The translations under genes and the position numbers were made by a program. Below the pieces are notes generated by a model. That model did not search any database and had not been told where the DNA came from. It was given only the letters and a program-made list of their open reading frames with translations. This document shows positions 18,747 to 31,638 of a stretch of 50,906 nucleotides of DNA, piece by piece. Positions within the stretch are counted from its first letter, which is position 1. The number at the start of each line of letters is the position of its first letter. The DNA is taken from assembly GCF_902705855.1 (NCBI RefSeq), contig NZ_CACSIJ010000014.1, positions 226,349 to 277,254 on the forward strand, written 5' to 3'. This DNA comes from Zhongshania aliphaticivorans (lineage in GTDB: Bacteria; Pseudomonadota; Gammaproteobacteria; Pseudomonadales; Spongiibacteraceae).

Positions 18747-18790
18747 TTGCCTGAATCTGTCGAGCCATTTATGATATGTTATATCATATC
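18747..18790 (+). promoter_or_regulatory. Zinc-island promoter with Zur-box-like operator
   Basis: GATATGTTATATCATATC (18773-18790) is an 18-bp palindrome with one mismatched pair. Its core GTTATATCATATC matches 10 of 12 informative positions of the gammaproteobacterial Zur core GTTATAnTATAAC. TTGCCT (18747-18752), a 17-base spacer and TATGAT (18770-18775) make a sigma-70 promoter whose -10 overlaps the left arm. Zinc-loaded Zur would therefore block it. The rest of the 306-base gap (18539-18844) shows nothing else. Confidence 0.75.
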
Positions 18791-18844
18791 TGTATATGGG
18801 GAGTGATAGGTGTGAAATACAGCTAACAGGGCGATGGGGCCATC

Positions 18845-19246
18845 ATGAGTCTAGCGATAGGTATTGCGGTGACACCGTATATGAATGCGCAACAACTGGC
18901 GTTTTTCTCCGACAGATTGTCAGCGCTGAAGCGCGAAACATTGGGCCATATTCACGCGGCGCAAAAACGTCTTGGCGAGCGTTTTGAGCTGAATGACGAG
19001 GCGGACTTGGCGCAGTATGAGGAGGAGTCTCGTATGGCGCTGCGCATTGTCGACCGAGAGGCAAAGTTGCTGCACAAAATAGATGCCGCTGTGGCGCGTA
19101 TCCGCGCTGGAGAATATGGTTATTGTTTGGAAAGCGGTGAGCCAATTGGTATTGACCGCTTATTGATTCGACCTACCGCTGAATACTGTGCGGAGGTGAA
19201 AACACAAATGGAAGAGAAGGAAAAGCACTATGGCAAACGCCGCTAA
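18845..19246 (+). CDS. DksA2-like RNA polymerase-binding regulator with incomplete zinc finger
   Basis: A 133-residue DksA/TraR-family protein. The coiled coil has the DxxDxA tip motif (Asp51, Asp54, Ala56) that enters the RNA polymerase secondary channel with ppGpp. The C-terminal finger has only Cys94 and Cys115; the partner positions are Ser97 (CLES) and Val118 (CAEV). Canonical DksA has four Cys. This matches the DksA2 paralogue of Pseudomonas, which works without zinc and is made under zinc limitation. It is the first gene behind the Zur-like box and overlaps the next gene by 17 bases. Role inferred: keep stringent-response control running when zinc-dependent DksA fails. Confidence 0.88.
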   Translation: MSLAIGIAVTPYMNAQQLAFFSDRLSALKRETLGHIHAAQKRLGERFELNDEADLAQYEEESRMALRIVDREAKLLHKIDAAVARIRAGEYGYCLESGEPIGIDRLLIRPTAEYCAEVKTQMEEKEKHYGKRR

Positions 19247-20441
19247 AAAACTGCCTGTCTCGGTACTTTCGGGATTTCTTGGCGCGGGCAAAACGACGGT
19301 GTTGAGTCATGTTCTGAACAATAGAGAAGGTCGGCGGGTGGCGGTGATCGTTAACGATATGAGCGAGATCAATATTGACGCCAGTGCGGTGAAAAATGAG
19401 GTTGAGCTCAATCGCAGCGAGGAAAAGCTAGTCGAAATGAGCAATGGCTGTATTTGTTGCACCCTGCGGGAAGACTTGCTGCTGGAGGTGCGCCGGCTGG
19501 CGGATGAGGGTCGCTTTGATTACCTGCTAATTGAATCTACGGGTATTTCTGAGCCGCTGCCGGTTGCAGAAACCTTTACCTTTGCGGATGAGGATGGCGT
19601 CAGCTTGTCTGATGTGGCGAGCTTGGACACCATGATTACGGTCGTCGATGCGGTTAATTTTTTAAAGGACTATGACGAAGCCAAATTTCTGCAGGAAACG
19701 GATGAGCACTTGGGTGAAGAAGACCAACGCAGTGTGGCAGATTTATTGGTGGAGCAGGTGGAATTTGCCGACGTACTGCTGATCAGTAAAACGGACTTGG
19801 TGGATGAGCCCACGCTAAACCGTTTGATTGCGGTACTGAAGACCCTGAATACCGTCGCGGATATTGTTCCTATTCGCAACGGGCAGGTGGATATCGATCA
19901 GGTGCTCGGCACGGGCAAGTTTAGTTTTGAGCGAGCGCAGCAGGCGCCGGGCTGGTTACAAGAGATGCGCGGTGAGCATGTGCCGGAGACAGAGGAATAT
20001 GGTATCGCCAGCTTTACCTATACCGCTCGGAAGCCGTTTCACCCACAAAAGTTTTACGACTTTCTTCATGGCGGAGATATTCAAGGCAAGTTAATTCGTT
20101 CTAAAGGTTATTTTTGGTTGGCCAGCCGTCCCGAGTTTGCTGGGCAGTGGAGTCAGGCTGGCGGTATGGCCCGCTATGGTTTTGCCGGCATGTTCTGGAA
20201 GGCTATTCCCCAGGAGCGCTGGCCTGAGGATGAGGAGTATCTCGCCTCTATTAAAAGTTCGTGGCAGGAACCCTTTGGTGATATGCGTCAGGAGCTGGTG
20301 TTCATTGGCCAGAAACTTGATCGAGATCGCTTTGTTGATGAATTAGATAACTGCCTGTTAAGCGATGATGAATTATTGGCGGGGCGTGAGCATTGGCTGG
20401 CCCTGCCAGATCCTTTTCCGGCTTGGGAGGCTGAGGCATGA
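19230..20441 (+). CDS. zigA: COG0523 zinc-chaperone GTPase, ZigA type
   Basis: A 403-residue CobW/COG0523 GTPase. GFLGAGKTT (residues 15-23) is Walker A, NGCICC (Cys74, Cys76, Cys77) is the CxCC metal motif, IESTGISEP is the switch/Walker B region and ISKTD replaces the usual NKxD. The CobW C-terminal domain follows (about residues 265-380). Homologues of this subfamily bind zinc and are thought to deliver it to client enzymes under starvation. Its position directly behind a DksA2-like gene with overlapping frames mirrors known Zur regulons. The symbol follows the Acinetobacter/Pseudomonas usage and is an orthology guess. Confidence 0.87.
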   Translation: MANAAKKLPVSVLSGFLGAGKTTVLSHVLNNREGRRVAVIVNDMSEINIDASAVKNEVELNRSEEKLVEMSNGCICCTLREDLLLEVRRLADEGRFDYLLIESTGISEPLPVAETFTFADEDGVSLSDVASLDTMITVVDAVNFLKDYDEAKFLQETDEHLGEEDQRSVADLLVEQVEFADVLLISKTDLVDEPTLNRLIAVLKTLNTVADIVPIRNGQVDIDQVLGTGKFSFERAQQAPGWLQEMRGEHVPETEEYGIASFTYTARKPFHPQKFYDFLHGGDIQGKLIRSKGYFWLASRPEFAGQWSQAGGMARYGFAGMFWKAIPQERWPEDEEYLASIKSSWQEPFGDMRQELVFIGQKLDRDRFVDELDNCLLSDDELLAGREHWLALPDPFPAWEAEA

Positions 20442-21118
20442 ACGCAGTTGCATTAAGTGATGGCAGCGCTATCGAGCGTGAGCACAGTGATTTATTAATA
20501 CGCCGCACGGTTTTTGGTTCGGCGGCAGATTGCTTGGTCGATATTTACCAGACTGACGTTAATTTAGCGGTGTGGCAGCGCGAGCTTTCAAACTCAGTAA
20601 AAAAGAACTGTCTTAGCTTGCTCGCTGATCGACACTTTACCGGCTGCCGCTTAGTGCTGACGGCGGATAAGATCGATAGCTTAGACGATGTTATGCCGGA
20701 GTTGCTTCGGTATCCCGACCTTCGGCGGGATATACAGTTGTTGGCGGATATGTTTCTCACCTTGTTTGGCCTTGAGCGCATCGGCCTGCGCCTGACGCCA
20801 TTAAAAGGCAGTATGTGCCCTAAATTTCATGTTGATCGTGTGCCCTGCCGACTAATCACGACGTATGTGGGAAAGGGGACTGAGTGGCTTCCCCATCATG
20901 AAGTAGACCGCAGCAAACTGGGTGCCGGTAGCAATGGAATGAGTGACTCGGTGAGCGGGATTATATCTGGCGATGGCTGTATTCAAACCTTGGCAAGTGG
21001 CGAAGTAGCACTGCTAAAGGGTGAAATGTGGGAAGGGAATGAAGGTGCGGGGGTGGTTCACCGCTCGCCCTTAGTTGTACCGGAAGATCGCTTATTGCTT
21101 ACCTTCGACGTGGGATGA
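20438..21118 (+). CDS. DUF1826-family protein of the zinc cluster
   Basis: A 226-residue cytoplasmic protein matching DUF1826 in character; this family is repeatedly found next to COG0523 zinc GTPases. The ATG overlaps the GTPase stop (ATGA). Seen in the sequence: CPKFHVDRVPCRLITTYVG (His131, Asp133) and GVVHRSP (His208, Arg209). This HxD...H...R pattern at this spacing resembles the metal and 2-oxoglutarate ligands of double-stranded beta-helix Fe(II) dioxygenases. That resemblance is my inference, not a known assignment. No signal peptide or membrane segment. Function is unknown; a metal enzyme or metal-sensing partner of the GTPase is possible. Confidence 0.75.
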   Translation: MNAVALSDGSAIEREHSDLLIRRTVFGSAADCLVDIYQTDVNLAVWQRELSNSVKKNCLSLLADRHFTGCRLVLTADKIDSLDDVMPELLRYPDLRRDIQLLADMFLTLFGLERIGLRLTPLKGSMCPKFHVDRVPCRLITTYVGKGTEWLPHHEVDRSKLGAGSNGMSDSVSGIISGDGCIQTLASGEVALLKGEMWEGNEGAGVVHRSPLVVPEDRLLLTFDVG

Positions 21119-21182
21119 ACCGCGATCACCTTGGACGGGGTATGAGTACTTGAGTGCAAAAAATGAGAGGAACCATACGGTG

Positions 21183-21764
21183 ATGCATCGTCTTCGCGGC
21201 TTAACCCTGCTGCTAGCCTTGGGTGTGTCTGCTGGTTTGATTCATGCCGAGGGTGCGCATCATCAAGGTCATTCGCACCAAGCCCATGTGCACGGCAAAG
21301 CCGAATTGCTTGTGGTGCTCGAAGGGCAGCAACTCGATATTGAACTGCGCTCTCCGGCTGTGAACGTATTGGGTTTTGAGCATTATACCGATAGTCCTGA
21401 ACATCAAGCCCAGATGACTAAGGTAAAGGCAGCGCTGACTGAGGCGGGCGGTTTGTTTTACTTCGGTGCAGGGGCTTGTTGGCTATTGGATCAGCGTATT
21501 GATTTTGGCGCCCTAGCTAAGGTGGATGATGATCACAAAGGCCATTCCGATAGCGACTTGGCCGCTGAGGAAAAACCCGAACATAGCGATGTTCAAGCTT
21601 ATTACCAGTATCGCTGCGAACAGCCGGACAAACTCGACTCACTGACAGCGGATATTCCTGTCATCTTTCCCGGCGTTGAGTCGTTGCAGGTGGAGTGGAT
21701 AGTGAATGGTCGGCAGGGAGCTTCAGTTCTGGATGCTCGTCGTCGCGATGTTAGTTTTAGGTAA
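21183..21764 (+). CDS. His-rich periplasmic zinc-binding protein, ZrgA/DUF2796 family
   Basis: A 193-residue exported protein. The signal peptide ends near LIHAEG; the mature N-terminus is His-rich (HHQGHSHQAHVHG), and a second acidic/His patch lies mid-chain (DDDHKGHSDSD). AHVHGKAELLVVLEG, LRSPAVNVLGFEH and FPGVESLQVEWIV are typical of the DUF2796 family, which includes ZrgA, a zinc-regulated periplasmic protein that helps zinc uptake. The frame is open from 21075, but GAGAGGAA sits just before GTG-ATG at 21180/21183 and the signal peptide starts there. In Pseudomonas a homologue (PA4063) is next to the ABC/DUF3299 genes; here those lie 4 kb further on. Confidence 0.83.
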   Translation: MHRLRGLTLLLALGVSAGLIHAEGAHHQGHSHQAHVHGKAELLVVLEGQQLDIELRSPAVNVLGFEHYTDSPEHQAQMTKVKAALTEAGGLFYFGAGACWLLDQRIDFGALAKVDDDHKGHSDSDLAAEEKPEHSDVQAYYQYRCEQPDKLDSLTADIPVIFPGVESLQVEWIVNGRQGASVLDARRRDVSFR

Positions 21765-21772
21765 GCCCTGTA

Positions 21773-22222
21773 ATGAATAATATTGAGCGAACCCTCGAAC
21801 AAGCTGAAATCAGTTGTCGCGCCACTGGTGCCAGACTAACGGAAAAACGTAAGCGCATTCTGATTGGCTTACTCAAGTCGGAAAAAGCTCAGTCTGCCTA
21901 TGAATTGATTGGCTATATGCAAAAAGAGTTTGGTGAGTCGCTGCCACCCACAACGGTGTATCGCATTCTTGATTTTCTGGCCAGTGAAAATTTAGTACAC
22001 AAACTTCATCTGGCTAATAAATACGTTGCCTGTTCCCACATTAATTGCGACCACACCCATGAGGTGCCGCAATTTTTGATCTGCGATGAATGTGGCAGCG
22101 TGAAGGAGATGGGGATTAAAACGGCGTTGATTAACACGCTTAGTCGCAGCGTCAAAGACGCTGGTTACATCCTCAAAAGCCCGCAGTTAGAGCTGCACTG
22201 TCTTTGTCAGGGCTGCGCCTAG
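21773..22222 (+). CDS. zur: Fur-family zinc uptake regulator
   Basis: A 149-residue Fur-family repressor. The winged helix spans about residues 20-85 (PTTVYRILDFL is the recognition region). The dimer/metal domain has CSHINCDHTHEVPQFLICDE with CDECG, and the C-terminus HCLCQGCA supplies the second CxxC of the structural zinc site. The N-terminal part and the HCLCQGC ending fit Zur rather than Fur. Lying inside the zinc cluster and only nine bases after the ZrgA-like gene, it should bind the palindrome at 18773-18790 when zinc is plentiful, thereby repressing its own operon. Confidence 0.88.
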   Translation: MNNIERTLEQAEISCRATGARLTEKRKRILIGLLKSEKAQSAYELIGYMQKEFGESLPPTTVYRILDFLASENLVHKLHLANKYVACSHINCDHTHEVPQFLICDECGSVKEMGIKTALINTLSRSVKDAGYILKSPQLELHCLCQGCA

Positions 22223-22255
22223 TTGGCCATCTGACAGCGACGATAAGGAGAAAAC

Positions 22256-22669
22256 GTGACACCTTTATCTACCCATATCGACAAGGCCGCCATCGGTCTG
22301 TCTCTGTTGTGCGCTGTGCATTGCTTACTGCTTCCGGTCGCTTTGGCGGTCTTGCCAACGCTGGCTGCCAGTTCGTTTGGAGGTGAGCGTTTTCACCTGT
22401 GGATGTTAATAGCGGTATTACCCACCAGCGTAATTGCCTTGAGTATGGGCTGCCGGCGCCATCGCAATATCAGCGTTTTGGTGATGGGCTTACCTGGGCT
22501 GGCTATTCTCACCGTGGCGGCGCTATTTGGTCATGAGTGGTTTGATGAACGCGGCGAGAAAATCGTATCGCTTATAGGTGCGTCGCTGATTGCCTTTGGT
22601 CATATTAAAAACCATACATTGTGCCGACAACAAAAGTGCGACTGTGAGGGGCAGCAAAATGCAAAATAA
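22256..22669 (+). CDS. MerC-domain small membrane protein
   Basis: A 137-residue integral membrane protein with four predicted hydrophobic segments. The first holds LLCAVHCLLLP, a CxxxC pair where mercury transporter MerC has its metal-binding cysteines. The C-terminal tail is Cys-rich (CRQQKCDCEG). The start is GTG, with a perfect AAGGAG five bases upstream. MerC carries Hg(II); no other mer gene is present, and the setting between zur and a methyltransferase points to zinc or another divalent metal. Its 3' end overlaps the next gene by 11 bases. Family fairly sure; metal and direction unknown. Confidence 0.8.
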   Translation: MTPLSTHIDKAAIGLSLLCAVHCLLLPVALAVLPTLAASSFGGERFHLWMLIAVLPTSVIALSMGCRRHRNISVLVMGLPGLAILTVAALFGHEWFDERGEKIVSLIGASLIAFGHIKNHTLCRQQKCDCEGQQNAK

Positions 22670-23387
22670 TGAAATAGCAGCACTCTTTAATAAAGCTGCA
22701 GCGACATACGATAAACAGTGGGAAAGAATGGCACCCATCCGCGATACCATCCATTTGTTAATGGAGGCCATCTTCGTCGAGCTGCCTGAAAATGCCAATA
22801 TTCTATGTGTAGGTGCAGGCACTGGGGCTGAATTGATTCAGTTGGCGCAAAGGTTTCCGTCTTGGACTTTTACTGCTGTAGACCCTTCGGAAGCCATGTT
22901 GGCAGTTTGTGCTCGGCGACTTGAAGAGTTGGGTTTGGCTGAGCGTTGCACTCTTCATTGTGGCTATCTTGAGTCGCTCGAACCGGCCGGTGCTTTTGAT
23001 GCGGCTACGGCCTTACTGGTATCTCAGTTTTTGTTGGATAAAACCGCTCGCATCCAATTTTTTGAGAGCATAGCTAAGCGGCTCTTACCCGGCGGTATCT
23101 TGGTGAGCTCAGACCTGTCTGCCGATTTGGATTCGCCTGCTGATTTGGCGCTTATGAAGGTGTGGTTTCGTGTGATGAAGGCCAGTGGTCTGAGTAAGGA
23201 AGACATCGAAAAAATGCACGCCGCATATCGCAATGACGTGGCTGTTTTACCTGAGGCAGAGCTTAGCCGCATTATTGAATCGGGTGGATTCGAGATGCCC
23301 ACAGTATTCTTTCAGTCTGGGCTGATACATGCATGGTATAGCAAAAAAGCTCATTGCTTGGCAGCGCCGACGGCGGAAACACTATGA
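22659..23387 (+). CDS. Class I SAM-dependent methyltransferase in the zinc operon
   Basis: A 242-residue methyltransferase. [12 protein letters not shown] (motif I, about residues 46-57), [10 protein letters not shown] (acidic loop binding the SAM ribose) and [13 protein letters not shown] (motif after strand 5) define the Rossmann fold. The N-terminus [15 protein letters not shown] resembles small-molecule and tRNA-modifying (CmoA-like) enzymes. The ATG at 22659 is preceded by GAGGGG and overlaps the MerC gene; an earlier in-frame ATG at 22590 lies deep inside that gene and is unlikely. Its stop overlaps the HisI-like start (ATGA). Nothing in the sequence shows the substrate; operon position ties it to zinc limitation. 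Confidence 0.85.
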
Positions 23388-23815
23388 TCAATACAGGTTT
23401 TCTTGCCTTTGAAGATTGCCTGCGCGGTGATCGGCTGGCGCTGCCTGAGGTATTGGATAATGTGCGTTTTGCGTGTAATGGGCTGGTTCCGGTCATTGCT
23501 CAGGATCACCACAGTCGCGAGGTGCTTATGCTGGCGTGGATGAATCGGGATGCCTTAGAGCAAACGCTCCAAAGCGGCGATATGACGTATTGGTCTCGCT
23601 CACGCGCTCAGTTGTGGCGAAAAGGAGAAACGAGTGGCCATTACCAGCGTCTGAAAACCATGCGGATTGATTGTGATGGCGATACCTTGCTGTGCGACGT
23701 TGAACAGCGCGGTTCTGCCTGCCATACCGGCAGACCTAGCTGTTTTTACTTGCAGGTGGATGCAAACACCCGCAGCGTAAAAGTCACTCACTCCGCGCCA
23801 AAGAAACAATGTTAG
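23384..23815 (+). CDS. hisI: HisI paralogue (phosphoribosyl-AMP cyclohydrolase) in the zinc operon
   Basis: A 143-residue PRA-cyclohydrolase, which opens the purine ring of PR-AMP in histidine synthesis. [11 protein letters not shown] (from residue 78), DCDGD (Asp96, Asp98, Asp100, metal site) and the zinc cysteines Cys97, Cys113 (ACHTG) and Cys120 (SCF) are all present, so it should still be a zinc enzyme. No HisE domain is fused. About 12 residues of N-terminal extension precede the usual start region. Extra HisI copies in Zur-linked clusters are known and are suggested clients of COG0523 GTPases. The his operon at 29.6 kb in this window holds no hisI, so whether this is a second copy or the only one cannot be told here. 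Confidence 0.87.
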
Positions 23816-23894
23816 AAACTTGCTTTCGTGTTGCGATTAGCCTTATAAAATTCGAGCTACTATTTTTTGCAATGCACACCAAGGATGTTTGTAA

Positions 23895-24941
23895 ATGTCG
23901 ACACTGAGCGCTATTCCCACCAATGTTATCACCGGCTTTCTTGGTGTTGGAAAGTCGACGGCCATCCTGCATCTTTTAAAGCAAAAGCCAGATCATGAAC
24001 GTTGGGCGGTGCTCGTCAATGAGTTTGGCGAGGTGGGTATCGACGGCAGTTTAATCAGCGGTAAAGAAAGCGAAGTTTCTGGGGTATTTATTAGAGAAGT
24101 ACCGGGAGGGTGTATGTGCTGCGCCGCCGGTTTACCCATGCAGATTGCATTGAACCGTTTACTGACTCACGCCAAGCCACATCGATTGTTAATCGAACCC
24201 ACTGGTCTTGGTCATCCTCAAGAGGTGCTGGCGGTGCTATCTGCTGAGCACTATAAAGTGGTGCTAGATTTACAAGCGACTATCACCTTAGTGGATGCCC
24301 GAAAAATTACTATACCGCGCTATACCGAGCACGCGATATATAATCAGCAAATGGCGATTGCCGATGTGATTGTGGCGAACAAGGCGGATCAATATGAGGT
24401 TGAGGATTTCCCTGCGCTGCTAGATTTTTTGGAGACGCGTTTTGGCAATAATCAGGTGGGCTTGAGTAGCAAATCTGTTTTTCAAGTGAGCCAAGGCGAA
24501 CTTGATATTGAGTGGCTGGCGGCGCCGGCCCATGAGCACCAGCAGGAGTATCACCATCATCATAATTCGGATTCAGGCGAACAACCGGTCGTGGAAGACT
24601 TCCCGCCGATAACATTGCCGGATGAAGGTTTTCTTTGTATCGACAACCAAGGCGAGGGTTTCTTCAGTCGTGGTTGGGTCTTCTCCCCAGAGTGGGTTTT
24701 TGATGCGGCTAAACTTTATGGTTTGTTAGTGGGTGTCGATGCCGAGCGTATCAAAGGCGTCTTCGTCACAGCGCAAGGCATTACGGCCTACAACAAGGCC
24801 GACGGGGTATTGACGGAGTTCGAGCTTGACGATTGTCTGGACAGCCGAATCGAATGCATTAGTACAGACCCAGAGGTGCTTGCGCTCTTAGAAACAGCCT
24901 TATTTGATTGTGTATTAAGTAAGCCCTATTCCTCTGTGTAG
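23895..24941 (+). CDS. Second COG0523 GTPase, His-rich (ZinG/YeiR-like)
   Basis: A 348-residue COG0523 GTPase distinct from the one at 19230. GFLGVGKST (residues 14-22) is Walker A, GGCMCC (Cys73, Cys75, Cys76) the metal motif, IEPTGLGHP the switch and VANKADQ the guanine-specificity motif. A His cluster (HEHQQEYHHHH, about residues 212-222) sits between the GTPase and C-terminal domains, as in YeiR/ZinG-type zinc-binding members. AAGGATG eight bases upstream is the ribosome site. It starts 79 bases after the HisI paralogue; a role in supplying zinc to that enzyme is an attractive guess. Its 3' end overlaps the convergent DUF3299 gene by 16 bases. Confidence 0.85.
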   Translation: MSTLSAIPTNVITGFLGVGKSTAILHLLKQKPDHERWAVLVNEFGEVGIDGSLISGKESEVSGVFIREVPGGCMCCAAGLPMQIALNRLLTHAKPHRLLIEPTGLGHPQEVLAVLSAEHYKVVLDLQATITLVDARKITIPRYTEHAIYNQQMAIADVIVANKADQYEVEDFPALLDFLETRFGNNQVGLSSKSVFQVSQGELDIEWLAAPAHEHQQEYHHHHNSDSGEQPVVEDFPPITLPDEGFLCIDNQGEGFFSRGWVFSPEWVFDAAKLYGLLVGVDAERIKGVFVTAQGITAYNKADGVLTEFELDDCLDSRIECISTDPEVLALLETALFDCVLSKPYSSV

Positions 24942-25507
24942 GGCCTAATGGAGTCTACTTCGATGGAGTAGGCCGCTGTCGCAGTATCGTTCTCGACGAT
25001 TGTGGTTTTGATGGTGCCGTATAACCAAAATGGGTCGTACAGTGATGATAGTTTGAAGCCCTTTTTAAACTCAGCATACACAATTTGATTCGGGGGTGGC
25101 GGTGGTACATGAATGCAGGCGCCAAAATACGGAACTAAAAAGAATTTGGTTATATGGTGCCGATCTACACCAAACTCCAGTGGTACGATAAATCCGGGAA
25201 TACGAATGGCTTTGCCGTCGAACTCGGCAATAACCTTGGTGGAAACCAAGGCTTGCTGATAGGGGTCGTCGCCTGGCGCATCCAATGCGGCTTTGATTTG
25301 GCTGGCAATCTTATCTGCGTCTGAGCCATCTTTAATTTCATTGATAGAATCTGGTGGATTTAAAAAAGCTTCCAGATCATCTTTGGGTATAAGGTCTGTC
25401 CATTCTACCGTCTGGTAATTACCCTGAGCGAAGGCCGTGCTAGTCAATACAAGCAGCAGTGCGACCAGAGCATAAGTAGGAATTGAACGTAAAGAAACGA
25501 GTGCCAA
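24926..25507 (-). CDS. Secreted DUF3299-family protein
   Basis: A 193-residue exported protein with signal peptide MALVSLRSIPTYALVALLLV ending at AFAQG. The mature part carries VEWTDLIPKDDLEAF, IRIPGFIVPLEFG, FFLVPYFGACIHVPPPPPNQ and YGTIKT, the conserved core of DUF3299. Members sit next to a LolCD/MacB-like ABC transporter in zinc-repressed loci (PA4064-PA4066 in Pseudomonas, as recalled). Here the gene is divergent from the ABC genes rather than in line with them. The C-x-H-V-P loop suggests a metal or redox site, but function is unknown. Confidence 0.82.
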   Translation of the reverse strand: MALVSLRSIPTYALVALLLVLTSTAFAQGNYQTVEWTDLIPKDDLEAFLNPPDSINEIKDGSDADKIASQIKAALDAPGDDPYQQALVSTKVIAEFDGKAIRIPGFIVPLEFGVDRHHITKFFLVPYFGACIHVPPPPPNQIVYAEFKKGFKLSSLYDPFWLYGTIKTTIVENDTATAAYSIEVDSIRPYTEE

Positions 25508-25617
25508 AATGGGCTCCTTTTACATAATTGGTCGCAGGGCTTGCTAGGCTTATTTTGCCAAGTCAGCTTGACGAAATACGCAATTGGCTTGAAAACAATC
25601 ATCGCGACTTTAAATAT

Positions 25618-25630
25618 GATACGTTATATC
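25618..25630. promoter_or_regulatory. Candidate second Zur site in the DUF3299/ABC divergent promoter
   Basis: GATACGTTATATC (25618-25630) repeats the left part of the Zur-like box at 18773 with one change (GATATGTTATATC). The right half is degenerate (GCCAAC). It lies 32 bases before the ABC gene and 111 bases before the DUF3299 gene, where one regulator could serve both. No convincing -35/-10 pair was found on either side. Confidence 0.5.
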
Positions 25631-25661
25631 GCCAACAACCACATCAATAGGAAATCGGCTC

Positions 25662-26330
25662 GTGCTACTCAGCATTAAAGACCTCCGTTTTCACTACCCT
25701 GGCGACAGTAAGGTGGTGCTAGATATTCCGCAATGGTGCTTGAGCGCGGGCGAACAGGTTTTTCTTCACGGTCCCTCTGGTGCGGGTAAGTCTACGTTTC
25801 TTAAATTGTTAGCCGGTCTTCTTGTTCCCAGCGGCGGCGGTATTACGATGTTGGGGCAGCCCTTGCAGGCTTTGCGCAGTGGCCAACGGGACAAGTGGCG
25901 GGCTCGCCATATTGGCTTTGTCTTTCAGCAGTTCAACTTAGTTCCCTATTTGAGTGGCCGAGATAATATTCGTCTCGCCGCCCACTTTGGCGGCAAGGGT
26001 GATGTCGATGCGGCTGCAACGGCTTTATTGACAAGCTTGGGGCTGGACGAAAAATTACATCGCAAGCCGGCGGCTGAACTCAGTATTGGGCAGCAGCAGC
26101 GGGTGGCCATTGCCCGCGCACTGATTAATCAACCGGAGCTGCTTATCGTCGATGAGCCAACCTCCGCTCTCGATGCTAAAAATCGCGATCTCTTCATGGC
26201 CTTGCTGGGTGAACAATTGGCGGAAAATAATACCGCGTTGATATTTGTCAGCCACGATCTTAGTTTGTCGAATGGCATGAGTCGCGTGGAGTCTTTGCAG
26301 GACATCAATCAGGCTGGAAGGGTTAACTAA
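25662..26330 (+). CDS. ABC transporter ATPase, LolD/MacB type
   Basis: A 222-residue ATP-binding subunit. LHGPSGAGKST (Walker A, about residue 35), VFQQFNLVPYL (Q-loop), LSIGQQQRVAIARAL (signature) and LLIVDEPTSALD (Walker B) are all intact, followed by the H-loop VSHD. The starting codon is GTG, with GGAAAT upstream. The FtsX-like permease follows in TAATG overlap, so the two make one transporter. This subfamily usually drives mechanotransmission or lipoprotein/peptide extraction rather than classic import. Its partnership with DUF3299 and ZrgA-type proteins in other species suggests a role in envelope adaptation to low zinc. Confidence 0.9.
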   Translation: MLLSIKDLRFHYPGDSKVVLDIPQWCLSAGEQVFLHGPSGAGKSTFLKLLAGLLVPSGGGITMLGQPLQALRSGQRDKWRARHIGFVFQQFNLVPYLSGRDNIRLAAHFGGKGDVDAAATALLTSLGLDEKLHRKPAAELSIGQQQRVAIARALINQPELLIVDEPTSALDAKNRDLFMALLGEQLAENNTALIFVSHDLSLSNGMSRVESLQDINQAGRVN

Positions 26331-27556
26331 TGTTTTTACGTTTAGCCCTGGCAAGTCTGCGCAGTCGCAAAGGTTCAGTATTGCTGACGTTTCTCGCTAT
26401 TACAGTCAGTGTGTTCGTATTGCTGGGTGTAGAGCAAATTCGCCAACAAGCTAAAAGCAGTTTTAACAATACCGTGTCTGGTATTGATTTGATTGTTGGG
26501 GCGCGCACCGGCGATATTAATTTACTGCTGTATTCAGTTTTTCGTTTGGGTCACGCCAGTAATAATATTTCTTGGCAAAGTTATCAGCACATTGCCGCAG
26601 ACCCAAACGTTGCGTGGACAATCCCCGTTGCCCTTGGCGACTCTCACAAAGGTTACCGGGTCATGGGAACGACGGCGGATTATTTTAATCACTTTCGCTT
26701 TGGTCAAAACCGACCCTTGGTGCTGGCGGAGGGCAAGCCTTTTTCCCAGCTCTATGAGCTGGTTCTTGGCAGTGAAGTTGCTCGATCACTGGGTTATCAG
26801 ATTGGCGACGAGCTGGTGCTGGCACACGGTTTGGGGAGTACCAGCTTCAGCCAACACAAGGACAAACCTTTTCGGGTTGCGGGCATTCTTCAAGCTACCG
26901 GTACGCCAGTAGATCAGACCTTGCATGTTAGTCTTCAGGCGATTGAAGCCATCCACAGCGGCTGGCAAAACGGTGTAAAAATACCCGGTGCAGATCATGG
27001 GCACGACGAAGAAGACCTGACACCGGAGTCTATAACCGCGTTTATGGTTGGACTTAAATCCAAGCTGGCCACCTTTCGTTTGCAGCGACAAATTAACACC
27101 TACGACAGCGAAGCCCTGCAAGCCATTCTTCCCGGCGTGACCCTAAGCCAGCTTTGGCAGATGATGTCGGCGATGGAAAATACCCTGCGTTTGATTGCGG
27201 CCTTAGTGCTGCTTGCCTCTTTGCTAGGTCTTGCCGCCATGTTGCTGGCGTCTATCAAAGAGCGTCAGGGCGAGATAGCCGTTATGCGCGCTATTGGCGC
27301 GCCGCCCCTGTTTGTCTTTGCGCTGATTCAGGCCGAGGCGCTGCTGATTAGCCTTGGCGGCATTCTCGTAGCAAATTTGCTCCTCATTTCATGTATTACG
27401 GTGGCCGGCAACGTCCTTGCCGAGCGTTACAGCTTGTTTATTGATGGCAAGTTACTTACACCCCAGCTGGCGTTTTATATGGGTGTGATCATTGTCAGCA
27501 CACTACTGGTGAGCGTAATACCGGGGATAAGTGCGTATCGAAAGGCGTCGGGATAG
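26330..27556 (+). CDS. ABC transporter permease, FtsX/MacB family
   Basis: A 408-residue membrane subunit with the FtsX layout: one N-terminal helix (about residues 17-37), a large periplasmic domain (about 40-270) and three C-terminal helices from about 280, 325 and 375. LASIKERQGEIAVMRAIGAP is the cytoplasmic coupling helix. A His/Asp/Glu patch in the periplasmic domain (DHGHDEEDL, about residues 223-231) could bind metal, though this is inference. The start codon shares a base with the ATPase stop. With the ATPase it should form a four-helix-per-subunit type VII transporter; the substrate is unknown. Confidence 0.88.
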   Translation: MFLRLALASLRSRKGSVLLTFLAITVSVFVLLGVEQIRQQAKSSFNNTVSGIDLIVGARTGDINLLLYSVFRLGHASNNISWQSYQHIAADPNVAWTIPVALGDSHKGYRVMGTTADYFNHFRFGQNRPLVLAEGKPFSQLYELVLGSEVARSLGYQIGDELVLAHGLGSTSFSQHKDKPFRVAGILQATGTPVDQTLHVSLQAIEAIHSGWQNGVKIPGADHGHDEEDLTPESITAFMVGLKSKLATFRLQRQINTYDSEALQAILPGVTLSQLWQMMSAMENTLRLIAALVLLASLLGLAAMLLASIKERQGEIAVMRAIGAPPLFVFALIQAEALLISLGGILVANLLLISCITVAGNVLAERYSLFIDGKLLTPQLAFYMGVIIVSTLLVSVIPGISAYRKASG

Positions 27557-27629: not shown

Positions 27630-27705
27630 TGGTGCCCAGAGACGGAATCGAACCGCCGACACGAGGATTTTCAATCCTCTGCTCTACCGACTGAGCTATC
27701 TGGGC
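27630..27705 (-). tRNA. tRNA-Phe (GAA)
   Basis: The minus strand folds as a complete 76-base cloverleaf: acceptor stem GCCCAGA/TCTGGGC, D-arm GCTCAGTCGGTAGAGC, anticodon stem-loop GAGGATTGAAAATCCTC with anticodon GAA, T-arm GGCGGTTCGATTCCGTC, and an encoded CCA end. All standard invariant bases are present. Confidence 0.97.
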
Positions 27706-29536: not shown

Positions 29537-29617
29537 TTATGACGTTTCTGCTTGGTGTAATACGGGTTGGGATTTTTTATAATACGCTATTGTAAGCAAA
29601 TAACCGATGAGGCGTCG

Positions 29618-30211
29618 ATGAACGAGCGCAAAGCTACGATCAGCCGTAACACCCTAGAAACCCAAATTACCGTGACAGTGAACCTGGATGGCACGGGTAC
29701 GTCTCATTTTGATACTGGGGTTCCCTTCCTAGATCATATGATGGATCAGATTGCCCGTCACGGCCTGATTGATTTGGTAGTGCACGCCAAGGGTGATTTA
29801 CACATTGACGCGCATCACACCGTTGAAGACATTGGCATCACCATGGGCCAGGCATTCGCTGAGGCGGTTGGCGATAAGAAAGGTATTACTCGCTACGGTC
29901 ACGCTTATGTGCCGTTGGACGAGGCTTTGTCGCGGGTGGTAATCGACTTCTCTGGTCGTGCTGGTCTGGAATATCACGTGCCTTATACTCGCGGCAGCGT
30001 GGGTGGTTTTGACGTGGATTTGTTCTCTGAGTTTTTTCACGGCTTTGTGAATCACGCCAAAGTGACTCTGCACATCGATAATTTGCGCGGTAAAAACACC
30101 CATCACCAAGCTGAAACGGTGTTTAAAGCATTTGGTCGCGCACTGCGTATGGCCTTGCAGGCCGACGAGCGCATGGCGGGCATTACGCCTTCTACCAAGG
30201 GTAGTCTCTAG
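29618..30211 (+). CDS. hisB: Imidazoleglycerol-phosphate dehydratase
   Basis: A 197-residue monofunctional dehydratase, the sixth step enzyme of histidine synthesis. [24 protein letters not shown] and [20 protein letters not shown] carry the paired His/Glu manganese ligands. The frame is open from 29567, but the ATG at 29618 has GAGG upstream and gives the standard [16 protein letters not shown] start. No phosphatase domain is fused, unlike the enterobacterial HisB. First gene of hisBHAF. Confidence 0.95.
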
Positions 30212-30222
30212 GGTTTTTCAAT

Positions 30223-30888
30223 ATGAGTAAGTCTTCCGTTGCCGTAATAGATTACGGCATGGGTAATTTGCACTCGGTGGCCAGCGCTCTCGAGAAGGTT
30301 GGCGATGGCGTTAAGGTCATGGTCACCGATTGCCCCGACACAATTTTGAGCGCGGATCGGGTGATTTTTCCCGGTGTGGGCGCGATTCGCGATTGCATGG
30401 CTGAGCTTAAATCTCGTGGTTTAGATGAAGTCATTCAGGAAGTAGCGGCGCAAAAGCCACTGCTCGGCATTTGTCTTGGTATGCAGGCTTTGCTGGAAAG
30501 CAGCGAGGAGAATGGCGGCGTTGAATGTTTAGATGTACTGCCAGGCGCGGTTAAATTCTTTGGTAGTGATCTGCGCGATGCTGCGGGCGGGCGTCTTAAA
30601 GTCCCGCACATGGGTTGGAACAATGTTATTCAAGCCATTGATCACCCGTTGTGGGCCGGTATTCCCGATGCCAGCCGATTCTATTTTGTGCACAGCTACT
30701 ACGTTGATGCACCGGAATTTGTGGCGGGTAGCTGCGACTACGGCGTGCAAGTACACGCGGCACTGGCCTGCGACAATGTGTTTGCCGTGCAGTTTCACCC
30801 TGAAAAAAGCGGTGATATGGGCCTGCGCCTGCTAAGCAATTTTTTGAACTGGGATCGCCCCGCGGCCTTTTTCCCAGTGACTGACTAA
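30223..30888 (+). CDS. hisH: Imidazole glycerol phosphate synthase glutaminase subunit
   Basis: A 221-residue class I glutamine amidotransferase that feeds ammonia to HisF. The triad is visible: Cys84 in LGICLGMQ, and His192 and Glu194 in [19 protein letters not shown] and [11 protein letters not shown] are family motifs. It lies 11 bases after hisB, and hisA follows after 15, so the genes are one operon; HisH and HisF form the synthase heterodimer. Confidence 0.95.
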
Positions 30889-30903
30889 TATTAAGGTTTC
30901 ACT

Positions 30904-31638
30904 ATGTTGATTATCCCCGCAATAGATTTAAAAGACGGCCAATGTGTGCGTCTGCGTCAAGGCGAAATGGGCGACTCTACGGTATACGGCAATGATCCCG
31001 TAGAAATGGCTGCACGCTGGGTTACTGCGGGTGGTCGTCGCCTGCATTTGGTTGATCTCAATGGTGCCTTTGAAGGCAAGCCCGTGAATGGCGAAGCGGT
31101 AACCGCTATTGCTAAGGCCTACCCAGATTTGCCGATTCAAATTGGCGGCGGTATTCGCTCATTGCATACCATCGAGCAGTATTTAGATGCTGGCGTGAAC
31201 TATGTGATTATCGGTACTAAAGCCGTTAAAGATCCTAAGTTTGTGGCTGAGGCCTGCAAGGCGTTCCCTGGTTCGGTCATCGTCGGCTTAGACGCCAAAG
31301 ATGGTTTGGTTGCTACAGACGGTTGGGCCGAAGTGTCTAATTTAGTGGCTACAGAGCTGGCTAAGCGTTTTGAGCAAGATGGCGTGAGTTCGATTGTATA
31401 CACCGATATTAGTCGTGACGGCATGATGCAGGGCGTTAATATTGATGCGACCGTGGCAATGGCGAAGGCTTCTGGTCTGCCGGTAATTGCCTCTGGTGGT
31501 GTGACCAATATGGACGATATTCGGGCGCTTAACGCAGTTGCGGATGCCGGTATTTTGGGTGCAATCACTGGGCGTGCGATTTACGAAGGCGAACTCGATT
31601 TAGCCGAAGCGCAGCGTTACTGCGACGACAACCGTTAA
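30904..31638 (+). CDS. hisA: Phosphoribosylformimino-AICAR phosphate isomerase
   Basis: A 244-residue TIM-barrel isomerase of histidine synthesis (ProFAR to PRFAR). [17 protein letters not shown] gives the first catalytic Asp (Asp8); [11 protein letters not shown] carries the second (about residue 170) and phosphate-binding loops GGGIRS and ASGGV are in place. Length is normal. Third gene of the his unit, followed after 24 bases by hisF. Confidence 0.95.

Follow-up and report, generated by a model that had tools for sequence, protein, structure and literature searches.

Within a 50,906-nucleotide stretch of the Zhongshania aliphaticivorans genome (the window), twelve genes that resemble a low-zinc programme lie side by side at 18845-27556 and include one for a Zur-type regulator of the clade here called Zur2, distinct from that of the Zur encoded beside znuC. 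Open reading frames (ORFs) and family searches place all twelve genes at, or very near, the positions assigned to them by a reading of the letters alone (the original prediction). Nine of them, in the order dksA2-zigA-DUF1826-zrgA-zur-merC-methyltransferase-hisI2-COG0523, occupy the plus strand at intergenic distances of -17 to +79 bp, in keeping with the predicted single direction and with overlaps or gaps mostly below 80 bases. The complete layout requires a correction, as the nine are followed by one opposite gene, DUF3299, and then by a plus-strand ATP-binding cassette (ABC) pair of ATPase and permease. The second COG0523 gene runs 16 bp into DUF3299, which in turn diverges from the ABC pair.

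Table 1. Features of the zinc-linked island, with positions in the window.
Feature	Position	Strand	Remarks
Putative operator 1, Zur2-type	18773..18790		Overlapping 13-mers GATATGTTATATC (18773-18785) and GTTATATCATATC (18778-18790, hybrid type)
dksA2	18845..19246	+	DksA paralog, two of four zinc-finger Cys replaced (CxxS...CxxV)
zigA	19230..20441	+	Zinc metallochaperone GTPase (COG0523); NF038288 equivalog 697 bits, cut-off 600
DUF1826	20438..21118	+	Predicted Fe(II)/2-oxoglutarate dioxygenase-like fold
zrgA-like, periplasmic zinc-binding protein	21183..21764	+	PF10986 136 bits, cut-off 27.4
zur2 (island Zur)	21773..22222	+	Zur2 clade; Arg64-Ile65 in recognition helix; Cys/His ligand residues kept
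merC-like membrane protein	22256..22669	+	C19-x2-H22-C23 motif; PF03203 99.6 bits, cut-off 27.6
Class I S-adenosylmethionine (SAM) methyltransferase	22659..23387	+	General methyltransferase families only
hisI2, second phosphoribosyl-AMP cyclohydrolase	23384..23815	+	Cys motif kept
Second COG0523 GTPase	23895..24941	+	cobW above Pfam cut-off
DUF3299 protein	24926..25507	-	Putatively ZrgE-like, by position
Putative operator 2, Zur2-type	25618..25630		GATACGTTATATC, in DUF3299/ABC gap
ABC ATPase	25662..26330	+	Zrg/PA4064-like by position
MacB/FtsX-type permease	26330..27556	+	Zrg/PA4065-like by position
tRNA-Phe	27630..27705	-	Right edge of island

Matches above the Pfam cut-offs cover DksA_N/zf-dskA_traR, cobW (in both COG0523 genes), DUF1826, ZrgA, FUR, MerC, PRA-CH, DUF3299, ABC_tran and MacB_PCD/FtsX. 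The replaced cysteines of DksA2 stand against CxxC...CxxC in E. coli DksA (1tjl), a partial loss of the C4 site; its best match in the Protein Data Bank (PDB) is 4ijj. The zrgA product matches PA4063 (7ahw) and the 'Zinc-binding protein' 8ezw in structure and falls below the ZrgA equivalog model NF047873 (95.4 bits, cut-off 185), so that it is termed ZrgA-like and is not an equivalog by that model. Its presence together with a MacB-type ABC pair points to a transporter of the Zrg type. The genome holds two HisI proteins; that of the island scores 122.7 bits with PF01502 and 167 bits with NF000768 (cut-off 126), and its Cys motif rules it out as a zinc-free replacement. The one solved structure found among relatives of DUF3299, 4hsp, carries the title 'hypothetical protein'.

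The original prediction envisaged a single Zur-like promoter; the sequence instead presents two Zur-box-like operators, one before dksA2 and one in the gap between DUF3299 and the ABC pair. Boxes were read as 13-bp elements of the layout G[A/T]TAY-NNN-RTA[A/T]C, termed A-type (AA) when both halves follow GATAY-N3-RTATC and T-type (TT) when the halves are GTTAY. Both operators fit the E. coli Zur box RNNNYxxxRNNNY and both contain TGATAYGTTATATC, at 18772-18785, some 60 bp ahead of dksA2, and at 25617-25630, some 32 bp ahead of the ABC ATPase and 111 bp ahead of DUF3299. Exact TGATAYGTTATATC occurs at these two sites only in the 3.95-Mb genome, a partly circular result as the pattern was derived from the sites. 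Operator 1 overlaps a -10-like TATGAT at 18770-18775. A genome scan with TGWTAYNNNRTAWCR returned nine rows at seven places, three of them zinc promoters, and the reversed control returned six rows; the pattern alone is thus not enriched.

Conservation of the boxes was followed in a 293-genome sample of the order, whose members carry G numbers (G000, this genome; G232, the same-genus Zhongshania marina ZX-21, record NZ_PQGG01000016.1; G171, a congener; G057, from another family). ZigA occurs in 96 of the 293 genomes at an expect value (E) <= 1e-120, and 98 zigA loci were fetched. A 13-bp box precedes dksA2 or zigA at 85 of 97 loci (window included), set against a background of 146 boxes in 1.78 Mb over all 98 loci; in G232, G293, G171 and G192 it lies 37-71 bp upstream of the dksA2 counterpart. 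By sequence comparison the box at the dksA2/zigA promoter is phylogenetically footprinted. Of 25 divergent gaps between DUF3299 and the ABC pair, 10 contain an exact box for operator 2, namely that of this genome and 9 of 24 others; it is A-type in G000, G232, G192, G212, G242, G030, G021 and G195, hybrid in G004 and T-type in G057.

The synteny search proposed with the original prediction recovers the full twelve-gene order among the loci inspected only in G000 and G232 (12/12), with large parts kept in G171 (11, no methyltransferase), G057 (10 in the same order) and G192 (9); in G171 and G192 a TonB receptor sits between DUF1826 and zrgA. Elsewhere the order breaks into sub-blocks, and many zigA loci hold zigA alone with or without DUF1826. 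A chance assembly of the twelve genes, most of them with zinc-independent promoters, is hardly credible against this retained order and against the boxes that head both units, even granted that the 64- and 79-bp gaps leave room for internal promoters. A terminator scan stayed near the shuffle means. The order shared with G232 and G057, the footprinted boxes and the embedded zur lend sequence support to the predicted single low-zinc programme under Zur-like control, with the single promoter set aside.

The notion that collecting otherwise scattered parts is peculiar to this locus finds no support in a wider comparison, as many gammaproteobacteria have blocks of these genes. We fetched flanks of up to 10 kb around Zur2-bearing loci, the best 80 of 195 relatives in GTDB, some of whose genomes overlap with the order sample. 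These loci hold merC (49), zrgA (43), COG0523 (41), DUF3299 (40), an ABC ATPase-like gene (40), the permease (36), zigA (33), DUF1826 (32), hisI (22), dksA2 (6) and the methyltransferase (1); merC directly follows zur in 47 and zrgA directly precedes it in 35. From these counts and adjacencies we derive a common core of zrgA-zur-merC-(hisI)-COG0523, DUF3299 and the ABC pair, to which a dksA2-zigA-DUF1826 head is joined in this island. By gene content and order the island is a richer version of recurrent modules of known low-zinc parts. A related island in G123 (L245) carries DUF1826, a TonB receptor, zrgA, merC, hisI2, COG0523, DUF3299 and the ABC pair.

The genome encodes three Zur proteins. 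Zur1 (G000:C14:134124-134603) is divergent from znuA and stands beside znuC (ZnuC 333 bits, cut-off 306), with an E. coli-like GTTAT half-site in its promoter. Zur3 (G000:C12:282657-283079) is 55% identical to the island Zur; its unit (L231:5143-9602, G000:C12) includes a ZnuD-like TonB receptor (364 bits) and an AztD-like protein (120 bits), both below their cut-offs (950 and 400), with GATATGGTATATC at the head, and recurs in G232 (L232) as a second Zur2-type locus. The island Zur itself scores 50.9 bits with PF01475, finds its best PDB matches in 7dh7 and 4mtd, and falls under the NCBIfam equivalog NF008646 (90.6 bits, cut-off 167), as does the znu-linked Zur1 (103.3). Its residues Tyr43, Arg64, H76, C87, H96, C104, C107, C145 and C148 include counterparts of the base-contacting Tyr45 and Arg65 of E. 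coli and of the Cys/His ligands, and mark it by sequence as a Zur; beyond E. coli C88 and C103, the ligand assignments are those we take to hold for Zur proteins. These two cysteines are named as zinc ligands in the portion of PMC4219657 available.

A tree of 109 Zur sequences (FastTree, midpoint rooting) divides into a Zur1 side of 48 and a Zur2 side of 61, the latter with both the island Zur and Zur3. The residues diagnostic of the two clades fall in the DNA-reading part of the protein. At position 65, beside Arg64 (the counterpart of E. coli Arg65), all 61 Zur2 sequences have Ile or Met and all 48 Zur1-side sequences have Ala, as do E. coli Zur and 7dh7; position 60 is Met (54/61) or Thr (6/61) in Zur2 versus Pro (47/48) on the Zur1 side; and position 41 is Ser (61/61) versus Gly (40/48) with Ser or Thr in the remaining 8/48. 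Ile versus Met at position 65 was also considered as the cause of A- versus T-type boxes within Zur2 and gave no clean split.

Box type follows Zur type across the order. With Zur2-positive status at zigA loci set at E < 1e-30 and transferred by hand, the dksA2/zigA promoters of 44 Zur2-positive loci carry AA boxes in 24, AA plus TT in 4, hybrids in 4, TT in 8 and none in 4, and those of 47 Zur2-negative loci carry TT in 34, hybrids in 3, none in 10 and AA in 0. Two of the boxless Zur2-positive loci (G054, G165) lie on contigs that end before the promoter, and a third, G057, carries a T-type box farther out, about 440 bp upstream; among the 47 Zur2-negative loci, two represent a second ZigA copy in their respective genomes, neither with a box. 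Family f43, whose Zur is on the Zur1 side, shows six TT boxes and one hybrid. G293, left unclassified in the locus count, encodes two Zur2-like genes (68-70% identical), which came to light after its box had been typed as A. Among box-bearing loci the A-type thus occurs in 28 of 40 Zur2-positive and 0 of 37 Zur2-negative cases (Fisher 7e-12), and after loci are collapsed to family and Zur2 status, with f43 entered as Zur2-negative, in 13 of 18 versus 0 of 12 units (p = 8.7e-5); both values are too strong because the genomes are related, which tempers the association. In the 80 GTDB loci, boxes stand near zinc genes in 67, A-type in 51 and T-type only in 1.

The same contrast can be read within single genomes. 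The zur1 promoter was read in 16 genomes that encode both Zurs. It is clearly T-type (0-1 mismatch, >=2 to A-type) in nine (G030, G057, G069, G100, G107, G192, G202, G209, G288) and more weakly T-like (2 mismatches) in five (G000, G171, G212, G232, G242); G078 gives a tie and G084 nothing usable. At the zigA/Zur2 locus of these 16 genomes the box is A-type in 12, that of G107 being found upstream of its Zur2, and T-type in 4 (G057, G069, G084, G100). Among the 12 A-type genomes zur1 is clearly T-type in six (G030, G107, G192, G202, G209, G288), weakly T-like in the five just named and tied in G078; the within-genome contrast is therefore clear in six and weak in five. Within the genus, the zur1 site G[ACT]AATATTATAAC, one GTTAT half and one degenerate half, is present in 12 of the 12 promoters fetched.

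Several observations weigh against a strict pairing of Zur2 with A-type operators. FastTree support for the Zur2 side is 0.69, compared with 0.996 for the Zur1 side. The eight Zur2-positive loci with T-type boxes only, the four with hybrids and the four with none depart from the pairing, and 58 of 230 half-sites near zinc genes of the Zur2-bearing GTDB loci are T; since Zur2 genomes with T-type and hybrid boxes exist, exclusivity is not general. Fifteen of the 25 divergent DUF3299/ABC gaps, including that of the congener G171, lack an exact box. The 13-mer that overlaps operator 1 is hybrid here and T-type in G232 and G293, where it might be bound by Zur1. The G123 island lacks Zur2, zigA and dksA2 and has the hybrid box GTTATAACATATC in front. 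The zur1 site of G000, G171 and G232 is called T-type on its conservation, because other 2-mismatch A-like stretches are present there, and sigma-70-like promoter counts do not exceed those of shuffled sequence.

Such observations could also be accommodated by one common Zur regulon, in which Zur1, the island Zur and Zur3 each accept either box type, A or T at the second half-site position reflects lineage drift, and the island amounts to a redundant extra zur beside ordinary Zur targets. Hybrid and overlapping A/T boxes are indeed common, G123 combines island genes with only a Zur1-type Zur, and in the available text of PMC4219657 E. coli Zur hydrogen-bonds chiefly with the RNNNY purines, common to both box types. 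We nevertheless judge a common regulon rather unlikely: it leaves unexplained the absence of A-type boxes from all 37 box-bearing Zur2-negative loci, the T-type zur1 sites that coexist with A-type Zur2/zigA sites in the same genome, clearly in six and weakly in five, and the residue beside the base-contacting Arg that is fixed differently in the two clades.

Distribution in the genus is patchy. In a survey of 18 genomes zigA is found in 5 and Zur2-like genes (E < 1e-40) in 7, including all five zigA carriers. The island abuts tRNA-Phe, and tRNA genes are frequent integration places of mobile islands. The same four flanking proteins and tRNA-Phe surround the island in G232; they are unmatched at the loci of G171, G192, G212, G123 and G293, of which the G171 and G192 stretches barely pass the right edge and the G293 locus yields only dksA2-zigA of the island. 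The scattered occurrence, the change of location between genomes and the tRNA at the edge are compatible with horizontal transfer. The GC content of the island equals that of its surroundings. We consider it very improbable that the island is chiefly a cassette spread by horizontal transfer, its genes co-located for that reason and served by any host Zur, given that the module order is kept from family to family; a cassette that brings along its regulator and operators would, moreover, fit the Zur2 circuit favored here rather than oppose it.

Parts of this arrangement are familiar. Zur-regulated clusters with COG0523, DUF1826, DksA and HisI were already described by Haas et al. (2009) (PMC2770081), the available passages of which concern FolE2/DksA/HisI paralogs and include C4-deficient DksA paralogs, HisI that keeps its zinc residues and predicted Zur sites. 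Unlike the clusters in those passages, the island adds zrgA, zur, merC, DUF3299 and a Zrg-type ABC pair contiguously, and its embedded Zur is of a separate clade. A ZrgA-like protein, a MacB-like ABC pair, a further periplasmic partner and Zur control also recall ZrgABC(DE) of Vibrio cholerae and PA4063-PA4066 of Pseudomonas aeruginosa, as far as the accessible text of PMC9820375 and PMC11481552 describes them; in our reading DUF3299 would be the PA4066/ZrgE partner. The divergent layout, the operator in the DUF3299/ABC gap and the embedded zur and merC set the island apart from those systems as described there. For the Zrg ABC pair those sources give opposite directions, zinc import in PMC9820375 and export of metallophore complexes in PMC11481552. 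The ZigA protein is a full-length match to NF038288; Acinetobacter baumannii zigA is named in the available part of PMC6103462. What distinguishes the island zigA is its place in a unit headed by dksA2, with a second COG0523 gene 3.5 kb downstream. With E. coli Zur (4MTD), to the extent that the PMC4219657 text seen covers it, Zur2 shares the Tyr and Arg base contacts, Cys/His ligands, a 5-3-5 operator layout and overlapping dimer sites, and differs in the residue that follows the contacting Arg (Ile/Met, not Ala) and in its half-sites (GATAY, not GTTAY).

Three further products merit comment. In DUF1826, H131xD133...H208 is invariant in 54 of 54 sequences and R218, ten residues past the distal His, is kept in 53. 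Its AlphaFold model (predicted local distance difference test, 91) matches Fe(II)/2-oxoglutarate-type dioxygenases best among the Foldseek matches listed, with a moderate fit (best E 7.5e-6, template modelling score only 0.34-0.48, root-mean-square deviation 5.8-13 A); the 50 listed matches we assign to this superfamily by title and recall. Motif and model suggest Fe(II)/2-oxoglutarate oxygenase chemistry. The portion of PMC5786701 at hand relates DUF1826 to succinylglutamate desuccinylase, for which the fold search gives no support; the corresponding passages of PMC2770081 only define the abbreviation, and the Fe(II)/2-oxoglutarate label was not met in the published passages on DUF1826 that were available. 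In the MerC-like proteins of the fetched loci C19, H22, C23, H47 and H69 are kept in 62 of 62, a pattern that may mark a zinc-site variant of MerC.

The methyltransferase was considered as a member of the zinc programme and rejected: it has matches in 22 of the 293 genomes, and among the loci inspected it stands beside zinc genes only in G000 and G232, as in a single one of the 80 Zur2-bearing GTDB loci. At 20 loci outside the genus, where its match is 42-52% identical in 14 and weaker in the other 6, the other eleven proteins are unmatched within about 1.5 kb. We take it as an accessory insertion. Its relatives in other genera at L026, L030, L031, L032 and L034 lie near an Rrf2-like regulator and most also near a flavin adenine dinucleotide (FAD) oxidoreductase, both named by eye. 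ORFs resembling hisB, hisH and hisA, again by eye, occur at 29567-31638, about 6 kb downstream of hisI2.

Zinc-loaded Zur represses its targets, and low zinc releases it from DNA. Under plentiful zinc, the zinc-loaded island Zur would occupy the two GATAY-N3-RTATC operators and repress both the nine genes from dksA2 to COG0523, presumably as a single transcript and with zur2 included, which would make the circuit autoregulated, and the divergent DUF3299/ABC pair. When zinc is low, Zur2 would leave the DNA; on established Zur behaviour we infer that zinc starvation lifts the repression of the island. The two COG0523 GTPases, ZigA among them, would then deliver zinc to client enzymes, DksA2 would stand in for zinc-finger DksA, HisI2 would provide an extra copy of a zinc enzyme, and ZrgA, DUF3299, the ABC pair and MerC would serve metal transport. 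Zur1 would control znuABC through a GTTAT-type operator. The island may be at least partly insulated from Zur1, because the residue beside the contacting Arg and the second base of the half-site both differ. 'Self-contained', as the original prediction called the island, may thus be truer than first claimed, since its Zur differs in clade and operator type from the znu-linked one.

Cells are generally taken to have a single Zur that recognizes a single type of operator, and the published passages available describe it in this way. Among the matches listed in a search of openly licensed literature (titles and abstract starts), we found no report of two Zurs with different operators, nor of MerC in a Zur regulon. 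We regard as probable a modular Zrg/ZigA low-zinc island that is autoregulated by Zur2 through diverged operators and partly or fully insulated from Zur1. The new element would be the distinct Zur2 circuit, for which we offer an association and a structural argument rather than a demonstration. More tentatively, and with the balance slightly against it, Zur2 could represent a distinct branch of Zur, found in marine and other gammaproteobacteria, whose operator code is GATAY-N3-RTATC and is determined by the Ile/Met next to the base-reading arginine; it would form a portable, insulated circuit with the zrgA-zur-merC-COG0523 module, so that some genomes, such as this one with its three Zurs, would operate two zinc-starvation programmes apart from each other, perhaps triggered at different zinc levels. 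If true, a second Zur clade that has a diverged operator and comes bundled with its targets would illustrate the duplication and insulation of zinc circuits, would supply a concrete residue-base hypothesis, would divide predicted Zur regulons that may be lumped together in motif searches, and would tie MerC-like and DUF1826 proteins to zinc starvation.

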